DNA of 64,000 nt from positions 1,798,001 through 1,862,000 of the forward strand of contig NZ_CP015519.1 in NCBI RefSeq assembly GCF_001887775.1, given 5' to 3'. A model generated the notes under the pieces. That model made no database searches, was not told the DNA's origin, and worked only from the letters and a program-made list of their open reading frames with translations. Position numbers and translations under genes: made by a program. Every line of letters starts with the position of its first letter. Within the stretch, counting starts at the first letter, position 1. Origin of the DNA: Syntrophotalea acetylenivorans. Its GTDB lineage: Bacteria > Desulfobacterota > Desulfuromonadia > Desulfuromonadales > Syntrophotaleaceae. Below, in pieces: positions 1-5,136 of the stretch.

Positions 1-279
1 GGCGCCTAAAATGACTCCAATCGCCTGACTTAACTGCATCAGGCCGGCGTTAGCCAGACCGACGACCATGACCGTGGTGATGGACGAGGATTGGACGAAG
101 GCGGTGACGCTGAGACCGACCAACACAGCCAAAAAACGGTTGGTGGTGACGGAAGAGATCGCCTTGCGGATAAGCCCCCCCGAAAGCATCTGCAGGCTTT
201 CCGACAGGAATTTCATGCCGAGGATGAAAATTCCAAGCCCGCCCAGGACGGTGTAGGCCATTTTAAAAGGTTCTATCAT
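1..279 (-). CDS. Na+/phosphate cotransporter family protein (N-terminal part, runs off the window)
   Basis: The reverse strand opens at an ATG at 279 and stays open to base 1, giving the first 93 residues of a membrane protein. It carries hydrophobic helices and the QSSSITTVMVVG segment typical of the Na/Pi cotransporter (PF02690) repeat, preceded by GLGIFILGMKFLSESLQ. Family members move phosphate, or act as NptA/YjbB-like exporters, across the inner membrane with sodium. Many carry a C-terminal PhoU-like domain, which would lie outside the window. The family is clear; the substrate is inferred from it. Confidence 0.85.
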   Translation of the reverse strand, partial: MIEPFKMAYTVLGGLGIFILGMKFLSESLQMLSGGLIRKAISSVTTNRFLAVLVGLSVTAFVQSSSITTVMVVGLANAGLMQLSQAIGVILGA

Positions 280-952: not shown

Positions 953-1216
953 ATGCTTTTAATAAAAAGAATCGTGCTGGACGTACTAAAACCTCACCAT
1001 CCTAACAGCATAGACTTTACTTTATCTATTGCCGAAAAATCGCCAGGTTCCCGTGTCGAATTGACCGTTACCGAAGTCGATGAAAAAACGGAAACTGTTG
1101 TCATAGTTATCGTAGGAGAAAACTTGCACTACGATACGATCGCTGATGCAGTTTCGAGCATGGGCGGGTCAATACACAGCATCGACAAGGTAGAGGTAGA
1201 AAATGAGCCTGATTAG
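953..1216 (+). CDS. DUF211 family protein
   Basis: The 87-residue product matches the DUF211 family from memory. It has the N-terminal (R)IVLDVLKPH motif, a central acidic TEVDEKTETVVIVIVG strand, and the C-terminal SMGGSIHSIDKVEVE signature. DUF211 proteins are small ferredoxin-fold proteins found mostly in archaea; no biochemical activity is firmly assigned. The stop overlaps the start of the next gene by 14 bases, which indicates translational coupling. Codons are AT-rich compared with neighbouring housekeeping genes, suggesting acquisition. Start is the ATG at 953, with only a weak upstream ribosome site. Confidence 0.85.
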   Translation: MLLIKRIVLDVLKPHHPNSIDFTLSIAEKSPGSRVELTVTEVDEKTETVVIVIVGENLHYDTIADAVSSMGGSIHSIDKVEVENEPD

Positions 1217-1820
1217 GCGGAACACGTCGTTAGTTAGAGGTCTGTTTGAACAGCTAAAATTGTTGCTGAAGATTACTCGTTCGCAAAGAATCGTACGACG
1301 GTACTTTATTGTTAATGGTTTTGACGGTGCACTTACGATGCTTGGCATAATCACGGGTTTTTATGTCAGTGACCAAACGAACTTTCCAATTATCATTAAC
1401 GCATGTTTCGGGGCTGCCATTGCTCTCGGAATGAGTGGCCTGACCAGTGCCTACATTAGTGAAACCGCAGAACAAAAAAAGGAACTTCATGATCTTGAGC
1501 AGGCAATGCTTAAGGACTTGGACAACTCCACTTACGGACAAGCTGCGCGCCTGCTCCCTTTTGTGATTGCAATAGTCAATGGCATTTCACCTCTGCTTAT
1601 TTCATTGATCATTATTTCGCCAATATGGGTGGCGACTTTTCCTTTAGGATTGCCACTTGACGCATTGGAACTCGCCTTAATGCTGGCGCTATGCCTATTA
1701 TTCCTGCTGGGCGTCTTTTTGGGGCGGATTAGCGGCACGTTTTGGTTGTGGTCCGGGGCACGAACACTTATTATTGCCGCTGCTACGTCGGCCCTCATTT
1801 TTCTTTTAGCCGCCTCCTGA
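1203..1820 (+). CDS. VIT1/CCC1-like (TIGR00267-type) membrane protein
   Basis: The 205-residue product has a soluble basic N-terminus, then FIVNGFDGALTMLGIITGF at about residues 35-55, resembling the first helix of VIT1/CCC1 iron/manganese transporters. A small-residue helix (ACFGAAIALGMSGLTSAYIS), an acidic amphipathic stretch (ETAEQKKELHDLEQAML) matching the cytoplasmic metal-binding-domain position, and three more hydrophobic helices follow. Membrane metal-ion transport is inferred from family. The ATG lies inside the 3' end of the DUF211 gene (14-base overlap), so the two are very likely one translation unit. Base composition is AT-rich like its partner. Confidence 0.75.
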   Translation: MSLIRRNTSLVRGLFEQLKLLLKITRSQRIVRRYFIVNGFDGALTMLGIITGFYVSDQTNFPIIINACFGAAIALGMSGLTSAYISETAEQKKELHDLEQAMLKDLDNSTYGQAARLLPFVIAIVNGISPLLISLIIISPIWVATFPLGLPLDALELALMLALCLLFLLGVFLGRISGTFWLWSGARTLIIAAATSALIFLLAAS

Positions 1821-4176: not shown

Positions 4177-4379
4177 GTCAGCCTCTTTAAGTGGGTTTAT
4201 GAGTCACCAATGGATTTTATAGCCTATTCAACTGATACGAGCAAGCAACTAAGAGTCAACAACGGAAGCATTGACAATTTCAACCTTTTTTCAGCCAGGA
4301 TCTTATTCCGCTAAATATGTTATTCTGAGAAAACTATTATGGGGATATCTAAAAAAAAGAGAATCGAAGGAACCGGCCC

Positions 4380-4715
4380 GTGAAAAAAATCATATTGTGT
4401 ATTGCCCTGCTGGCCCTCATTCAAAACTGGGGGCGCATCAGCAGCTTATTTGAATCGGCGCCGGTCGTCCCGGCCAGCTCCGGCGCAACGATCATTATGT
4501 ACAGCACTGACTGGTGCGGCTACTGTAAACAGGCCCGCGCCCTGTTTGATTCCGCTGACGCAGCCTATCGCGAATATGATATTGAAAAGTCTGCTGAAGG
4601 GCTTGAACAATACCAGATGCTGGGTGGTCGTGGAGTACCGCTTATTGTCATTAACGGAAAGCTCTTACGAGGCTTCAATAAACGGCAAATCTTACGGGAA
4701 CTGTCCATCGAATAA
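4380..4715 (+). CDS. Membrane-anchored or exported glutaredoxin-like protein
   Basis: The 111-residue protein starts at a GTG (4380) with a hydrophobic segment (residues 4-14) acting as signal or anchor, a linker, then a glutaredoxin/thioredoxin fold. The redox motif is CGYC at residues 46-49 (STDWCGYCKQA). The cis-proline loop is RGVPLIVINGK and is followed by a glycine-containing helix (RGFNKRQILREL). It should act as a thiol-disulfide oxidoreductase facing the periplasm. The fold call is firm; export is inferred from the N-terminus. It is followed after 37 bp by the MoaE-like gene on the same strand. Confidence 0.85.
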   Translation: MKKIILCIALLALIQNWGRISSLFESAPVVPASSGATIIMYSTDWCGYCKQARALFDSADAAYREYDIEKSAEGLEQYQMLGGRGVPLIVINGKLLRGFNKRQILRELSIE

Positions 4716-4752
4716 CTAGAATGCCATACCATGAGCATCACAAGGAGGTACC

Positions 4753-5136
4753 ATGATTCAGGTTGTCGAAGAACCGATTCATCCAGGTGTTATTTACGAC
4801 CTGCTCTCCAAGGATAGAGCGGGCTCGGTGTTGCTGCACTACGCGGTGGTCAAGGAAACCCCACACAATCAGGCTGCGACCACCGGTGTCAAATACCAGC
4901 GAAAGGGTGACATGGAAGAGGAAATGCAAGCCATTGCCGAGCATCTGCAGGACAAGTGGGAATTGGACGATGTGCTGCTGATTCGCCGGCTGGGCTGCCT
5001 GAAGGCCGGAGAAATCATCTCTTTGATTGCGGCCTCATCTCCCAACAGCGCCGATGTCTTTGCCGCCTGTCAGCACGGCATCAGTCATCTGAAAAAGATG
5101 AAGACTTTTTGCAAGGTTGAAATCGGAGCCTCCTAG
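4753..5136 (+). CDS. MoaE-like molybdopterin synthase catalytic subunit homologue (divergent)
   Basis: The 127-residue product has the MoaE layout: GSVLLHYAVVKETPHN at the usual GAVVxFxGxVR position, then LLIRRLGCLKAGE matching the HRxGxLxxGE motif, SSPNSADVFAACQHGISHLK matching the SxHRxxAFxAxxxxxDxLK region, and KKMKTFCKVE at the catalytic-lysine end. MoaE transfers sulfur from MoaD to precursor Z. Here the HR pair of SxHR is replaced by NS and the C-terminal tail is short, so activity may be altered. The start ATG follows AAGGAGGTACC, a strong ribosome site. No moaD or other moa gene lies next to it. Confidence 0.7.
   Translation: MIQVVEEPIHPGVIYDLLSKDRAGSVLLHYAVVKETPHNQAATTGVKYQRKGDMEEEMQAIAEHLQDKWELDDVLLIRRLGCLKAGEIISLIAASSPNSADVFAACQHGISHLKKMKTFCKVEIGAS

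Follow-up and report, generated by a model that had tools for sequence, protein, structure and literature searches.

What does a small protein encoded immediately ahead of a transporter gene contribute to transport, and which ion would the two proteins handle? This question is raised by a locus at the start of a 64,000-nt stretch of the Syntrophotalea acetylenivorans genome (NZ_CP015519.1, 1,798,001-1,862,000; 3.22 Mb, single contig), hereafter the window, in which a gene of the DUF211 family (PF02680, COG1888) precedes a gene for a membrane protein of the VIT1/CCC1 type. No function of DUF211/COG1888 was found in the literature searched, the sole remarks on the family coming from the available part of PMC9425974, and three structures of the family were released between 2007 and 2010. 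A full-text search, in which few subscription papers are covered, retrieved no paper on the DUF211-VIT pair.

The gene pair in the window

The DUF211 gene (953-1216, plus strand) encodes 87 aa with a ferredoxin-like fold, and the VIT1/CCC1-type gene (1203-1820, plus strand) encodes a five-helix transporter of 205 aa, counted from ATG1203, without the cytosolic metal-binding domain. Both genes lie exactly where a preliminary description, made from the sequence alone, had placed them, and both family assignments exceed the curated cut-offs of Pfam (PF02680, E 1.3e-25 and 89.8 bits against 22.1; PF01988, E 1e-7 and 32.5 bits against 28.1). TIGR00267, a hypothetical equivalog and the sole NCBIfam model matching these VITs, gives the window protein 79.7 bits, which is below its equivalog cut-off of 156.95. 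A STING_TM match of 22.2 bits, below its own cut-off, was taken as chance. In the whole genome, DUF211 and VIT1 have one match each.

The pair is followed by a convergent gene for the GTPase RsgA and preceded by a divergent gene for a Na/Pi cotransporter with a PhoU part, of which the window holds the 5′ end (1-279, minus strand). The latter is a neighbour of the pair, to which a link is unproven. The whole gene is present in L022 (8603-10279), and a Na/Pi cotransporter also lies near the pair in a second, unrelated genome (L062, 316-1947), which may be chance.

The 14-nt overlap between the two genes (1203-1216, plus strand) is present in the window as first described, but it rests on ATG1203. 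In near relatives of the same order (e.g., L039, L041 and L042), an in-frame GTG followed by a TGA occupies this position and VIT starts at an ATG located 25 nt past the DUF211 stop codon. Because the window has a CTG at the place of this start codon (1242-1244, plus strand, VIT residue 14), ATG1203 and the overlap are local features. The genes overlap by 4 nt in the distant L024 and L025 and are separated by slightly more than 100 nt in L026 and L027; close packing is usual, the exact overlap is not.

The preliminary impression that the pair is AT-richer than its surroundings is borne out by GC content, both overall and at third codon positions. Among 67 mechanically picked ORFs of at least 85 codons (mean GC 0.559, sd 0.036), DUF211 (0.429) and VIT (0.465) have the lowest and second lowest GC, while the pair ranks second and fourth lowest for GC3. 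The intergenic region upstream of DUF211 is also within the low-GC stretch.

Rfam at gathering thresholds detected no RNA family or riboswitch near any pair in 20 loci; a cobalamin riboswitch in L015 (446-602, 53 bits) lies far from the pair, ahead of a 959-codon ORF. In an alignment of seven upstream regions, conservation was confined to the ribosome-binding stretch, and a scan for promoters and terminators gave matches no more frequent than in shuffled sequences.

Distribution of DUF211

DUF211 was initially described as mainly archaeal. It is not restricted to archaea, being present in 6 of 395 sampled Desulfobacterota genomes and in 9 of 277 genomes of the class (window genome counted in both), and, in Pseudomonadota, above the cut-off in 10 of 398 sampled genomes, eight with E <1e-20 and two weak. 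The two weak matches over the Pfam cut-off (G1029, E 6.8e-5; G842, E 3.6e-4) were judged by eye (a GrpE-like ORF; a 924-aa ORF) and dropped as probable chance. The distribution is patchy even close to the window: DUF211 is missing from the four further genomes of the genus and from the remaining nine of the family (completeness is below 90% for 5 of the 13). Seven MAG loci with the pair (L011-L017, L012 being cut by the contig end) bear the titles Gammaproteobacteria, Methylococcaceae, Methylothermaceae or Proteobacteria, and one of them, L016, belongs to G655, which is already counted. In a record titled Chloroflexi bacterium (L009), the pair is 75% identical to that of the window; the title seems wrong, as the genome that matches this record (G470) belongs to the order of the window.

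The archaeal sample consisted of plasmid records and control genomes. DUF211 matches were found in 4 of 14 control genomes and TIGR00267 matches in three of these four, all three archaeal, and in none of the ten others, the exception being Thermotoga maritima, which has DUF211 and PF01988 matches without TIGR00267. Haloferax volcanii, a control genome from an archaeon used in the laboratory, matches both DUF211 and TIGR00267, which makes the question directly open to experiment. The available part of PMC9425974 lists COG1888 for 52 Sulfolobales genomes and gives a link with ArsR regulators in Thermococcales; hence, other contexts for DUF211 exist.

Pairing with one VIT subtype

The VIT subtype was searched with a profile of 38 paired VITs, including those of 13 of the 14 positive genomes (the G763 protein was left out), scoring at most eight candidates per genome. 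Strong DUF211 matches and this subtype coincide genome by genome: of 395 Desulfobacterota genomes, six have both (VIT 128-279 bits, against 38 in the next genome), and of 398 Pseudomonadota genomes, eight have both (243-278 bits, against 36 in the next; the overlap becomes 8 of 10 if the two weak DUF211 matches are counted). Across the 793 sampled genomes, the two sets are identical, with 14 members each. Matches in 13 of these genomes are expected, since their own paired VITs built the profile; the informative part of the search is that no other genome scored above 38 bits. Simple counting puts the probability that such a complete overlap arises by chance under 1e-12 for each phylum, although the genomes are not independent. 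This exact co-occurrence is what is new here, and it agrees with the earlier proposal that DUF211 is a partner of the membrane protein.

The two genes are also adjacent in bacteria and haloarchaea alike. A VIT-type ORF lies directly downstream of DUF211 in all 14 Desulfobacterota genomes bearing it (phylum and class sets together); in G371 and G348, the VIT was identified through its TIGR00267 match (E 1.2e-10 and 4.7e-7, respectively), and the contig ends within VIT in G453. In Pseudomonadota, the pair is adjacent in seven of the eight strong genomes. In G763, the genes lie 433 kb apart on one contig (DUF211 at 3710595, VIT at 3276689-3277264), each among other genes, and both are kept; linkage alone is therefore insufficient to explain the pairing. 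The co-occurrence, including this unlinked pair, names the partner of DUF211.

Among haloarchaeal plasmids, all 23 records in which DUF211 was matched also gave a VIT match. In four of the 27 records with a VIT match, tblastn detected no DUF211; one of these four (H29, L020) nevertheless has an adjacent DUF211. The 14 records that were read, comprising 13 of the 23 with both matches and H29/L020, all have the pair adjacent, the VIT of L021 being apparently frameshifted. In this last record, a Haladaptatus plasmid, the frameshifted VIT stands behind DUF211 (4306-4859) and a second, annotated VIT1/CCC1 gene lies nearby (1173-1724).

The genome G670 has no DUF211 match and contains a 97-codon ORF fusing the start of a VIT to the C-terminal part of a P2-ATPase. 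The first 36 VIT residues are 81% identical to L059, the ATPase part is 78% identical to residues 808-871 (of 882) of L060, and a 20-residue DUF211 end (80%) is found just upstream. This arrangement (L110, 5423-5785) resembles the scar that deletion of a DUF211-VIT-P2-ATPase cassette such as those of L059 and L060 would leave, which suggests that the cassette was lost as a unit. The protein distances of DUF211 and VIT are correlated (r 0.88, with none of 2000 permutations as high), much of the correlation coming from a deep split between groups.

Phylogeny and transfer

A tree of both proteins was computed from 36 rows, L024 and L025 being left out for their very long branches. The window groups with five loci of its order (100/99), next to L011, a MAG titled Gammaproteobacteria (97/84), and then to L013 and L014, titled Proteobacteria (99/96), while L040 and L044, of the same order as the window, fall elsewhere. 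Many rows are short MAG contigs (10 kb for L011 and for L040), whose labels can be wrong. Monophyly of the 11 Desulfobacterota rows is rejected (AU p 1.1e-5), and so is that of the eight same-order rows (p 0.003). On these results, the pair moves between bacteria. Haloarchaeal rows form one side of a 100/100 branch.

Composition agrees with a transfer of the pair, with limits on its generality. In the window and in four of its five nearest same-order relatives, the AT content of the pair exceeds that of the flanks by 0.04-0.09, and in the fifth relative by 0.007; in 18 of 22 other loci, the pair is within 0.04 of the flanks, including L011, in which the pair (0.416) matches its flanks (0.413). 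The AT-richness first noticed in the window is thus a trait of its clade.

The view of the pair as a transferred module is strengthened by the patchy distribution, the rejected Desulfobacterota clade and the AT-rich composition in the window's clade. A widespread, vertically inherited DUF211 occurring apart from the membrane gene would have spoken against this view, and the opposite was found, the genes being patchy, transferred and co-occurring. The direct archaeal origin that had been implied finds no such backing, since the nearest rows outside the window's clade are proteobacterial MAGs; a recent archaeal donor of the window pair is not indicated.

Gene neighbourhood and candidate ions

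An all-against-all comparison of 32 loci, whose flanks differ in length, revealed no further gene common to all; hence, the pair is self-contained. Its recurrent companion in this comparison is a P-type ATPase. Each of the 14 plasmid records was searched over its whole length, and a P2-type ATPase (PF00689) lies no more than 6 kb from DUF211 in 8 of 14 (expected 0.46; 0 of 200000 simulations), one of which is a 45-residue C-terminal remnant upstream of DUF211 in Haloterrigena turkmenica (W02/L019, NC_013744, 537039-537173). A Na/Ca antiporter (PF01699) was found within this distance in 4 of 14 (expected 0.28; 11 of 200000 simulations), and one or the other lies near the pair in 11 of the 14 haloarchaeal records. 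These families were chosen after the annotations had been seen. The idea of an ATPase came from the first four plasmid records, so the last ten are a partial test of it (near in 4 of 10; expected 0.28; 16 of 200000); the antiporter first came to attention within those same ten records, which provide no independent test of it, and its counts cover plasmid records only, not bacterial loci.

The five haloarchaeal ATPases checked all contain PEGLP, SANxAEV and LLWINLLTDG, the signatures of TM4, TM5 and TM6, which we take to match the Ca2+ ligands of SERCA. In Pseudomonadota, a P2-ATPase directly follows the pair in L059, L060 and L062, three of six loci with an adjacent pair, and the contig ends at this point in L057. 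The best model for these three ATPases is that of PMR1-type Ca pumps, below its cut-off, and they have PEALP instead of PEGLP. Neither the window nor any of the other Desulfobacterota loci compared, several of which are truncated by contig ends, shows a P2-ATPase next to the pair. An ATPase near L043, first grouped with the P2 type, was dropped as CopA-like.

In the available text of PMC6678438, the yeast ATPase Pmr1 transports Ca2+ and Mn2+, and Ccc1 is a transporter of Mn2+ and Fe2+ that is believed to work as an antiporter; a broader divalent-cation specificity is stated for plant VITs and yeast CCC1 in that of PMC8247066. Where the available portions of PMC10794610, PMC8247066, PMC6678438 and PMC7540006 name substrates of VIT/CCC1 proteins, these are Fe2+, Mn2+ or divalent cations broadly, not Ca2+. 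On balance, Ca2+ and/or Mn2+ would fit the neighbours better than iron. The joint occurrence of the pair in bacteria and haloarchaea, often by calcium pumps in archaea, suggests a single cation-handling machine in which the role of the small protein is testable, and the neighbouring genes indicate which ions should be tested.

The two proteins

The predicted model of the window VIT (pLDDT 78.8) has the five-helix VIT fold and resembles EgVIT1 (6iu3, Z 16.7 over 169 residues; 6iu4, 16.4; next unrelated chain, 8.6). Asp41 (codon 1323-1325, plus strand) is the equivalent of the TM1 residue Asp43 of EgVIT1, a canonical VIT1 feature, and is invariant in 38 of 38 proteins. At the TM2 residue Glu72, the equivalent is missing and Ala71/Ala72 are found (weak local alignment, 2.6 bits). 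In EgVIT1, Asp43 is the initial iron-binding site and Glu72 serves in proton binding and relay, according to the available parts of PMC10794610 and PMC8247066. The model has a helix at 61-102 followed by another at 110-144, with a mean pLDDT of 55-70 for the blocks in this region. Because the TM2 helix reaches 102 and TM3 starts at 110, the cytosolic metal-binding domain H1-H3 is predicted to be absent, shrunk to a short loop. The window protein hence shares with EgVIT1 the fold, the TM1 aspartate and a long TM2, and differs in lacking H1-H3 and the Glu72 equivalent and in having DUF211 as a separate partner.

A VIT membrane part without the cytosolic loop is also found in plant VTL and bacterial MbfA. 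VTL iron transporters lack both the metal-binding domain and Glu72 and retain transport (PMC10794610, in part), while MbfA carries another, ferritin-like cytosolic domain (PMC7540006, in part). This domain is within the same protein in MbfA, whereas the partner here is the ferredoxin-like DUF211, encoded by its own gene; a Pfam scan of both genes detected no N-terminal ferritin-like domain of the MbfA type.

The predicted model of the window DUF211 (pLDDT 86.8) has the ferredoxin-like beta-alpha-beta-beta-alpha-beta fold of the solved members, and its best PDB matches are 3bpd, 2raq and 2x3d. These are of the same family (COG1888) and fold, and differ in being archaeal and in that the window copy is shorter at its C terminus. 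Asp10 (codon 980-982), Pro17, Asp43 (codon 1079-1081) and His75, Ser76 and Asp78 of the HS(I)D motif (1175-1186), all on the plus strand, do not vary among the 42 aligned proteins, and the three PDB sequences retain both Asp positions and the His-Ser-x-Asp motif. Judging from the strand topology, Asp10, Asp43 and His75/Asp78 would share one end of the sheet, although the sides of His75 and Asp78 may differ. The hypothesis suggested by this conservation is that the Asp and His residues could bind a metal.

A proposed split exporter and its alternatives

Gene pairing, co-occurrence, fold, residue conservation and neighbours were observed, and from these we infer the contact between the proteins, the binding of metal, the direction of transport and the ion. 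The reading that we favour, by a modest measure, is that DUF211 and VIT form one unit, a divalent-cation exporter on which DUF211 would act in trans. The VIT-type protein would be an antiporter of the cytoplasmic membrane, having kept the five-helix fold and the TM1 aspartate and lost the cytosolic domain, and soluble DUF211 would replace the missing metal-binding function in trans. Asp10, Asp43, His75 and Asp78 of DUF211 may bind or sense the ion, and DUF211 may thereby gate or load the transporter. The likeliest ions would be Ca2+ and/or Mn2+, for which the pair could provide a secondary efflux route beside P-type Ca pumps and Na/Ca antiporters. This reading of a split transporter is made because a VIT without its domain comes with a small soluble protein bearing an invariant Asp/His set. 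MbfA, a loop-less VIT with a ferritin-like domain in the available part of PMC7540006, is a known parallel.

A bolder version of this reading is tentative, and we would sooner doubt than assert it. This VIT branch would export Ca2+, perhaps with Mn2+, and would have outsourced its metal-binding domain to DUF211, a calcium-sensing or calcium-loading subunit, in an ancient system of archaea and bacteria spread by transfer. If true, DUF211 would be a subunit of an ancient two-part exporter common to archaea and bacteria.

It is rather unlikely, though a serious contender, that DUF211 leaves the transported ion unbound and regulates VIT in the manner of PII or ACT domains, by sensing a nucleotide or metabolite. 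Many regulators share the fold, and below the DUF211 chains the structure search returned PII (GlnZ, GlnK) and NikR domains among others, weakly (E about 0.02-0.07). The invariant Asp, Pro, Asp, His, Ser and Asp residues, however, fit a cation site, and the 87 aa leave no DNA-binding part.

We regard as unlikely an iron, or iron/manganese, exporter similar to MbfA or VTL, in which DUF211 would handle Fe2+ and calcium would play no role. Iron keeps a place among the candidates, since VIT/CCC1 proteins move Fe2+ and Mn2+ in the portions of the cited work available and VTLs transport iron without the metal-binding domain and Glu72 (PMC10794610, in part). Against it, reading the recurrent neighbours of the 32 loci brought no recognised iron gene, these neighbours being Ca2+/Mn2+-type P-ATPases, with Na/Ca antiporters on plasmids, and no Rfam riboswitch accompanies the pairs in the 20 loci searched.

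The replacement of the proton-binding Glu72 of EgVIT1 by a small residue could also mean that the VIT-type protein, rather than being an exporter, imports cations or serves DUF211 as a membrane receptor. This is improbable, as the Asp43 equivalent and the VIT fold are kept and VTLs without Glu72 still transport (PMC10794610, in part). That DUF211 and VIT are neighbours transferred together with no functional tie would suit their patchy, transferred distribution but is scarcely credible given the exact co-occurrence, the retention of both unlinked genes in G763 and the adjacency across bacteria and haloarchaea despite different surroundings.

Genes annotated as universal stress proteins were also seen near the pair in 5 of the 14 haloarchaeal loci (L018, L021, L066, L067 and L068), and ORFs of similar appearance, recognised by eye, are present in L039 and L062.
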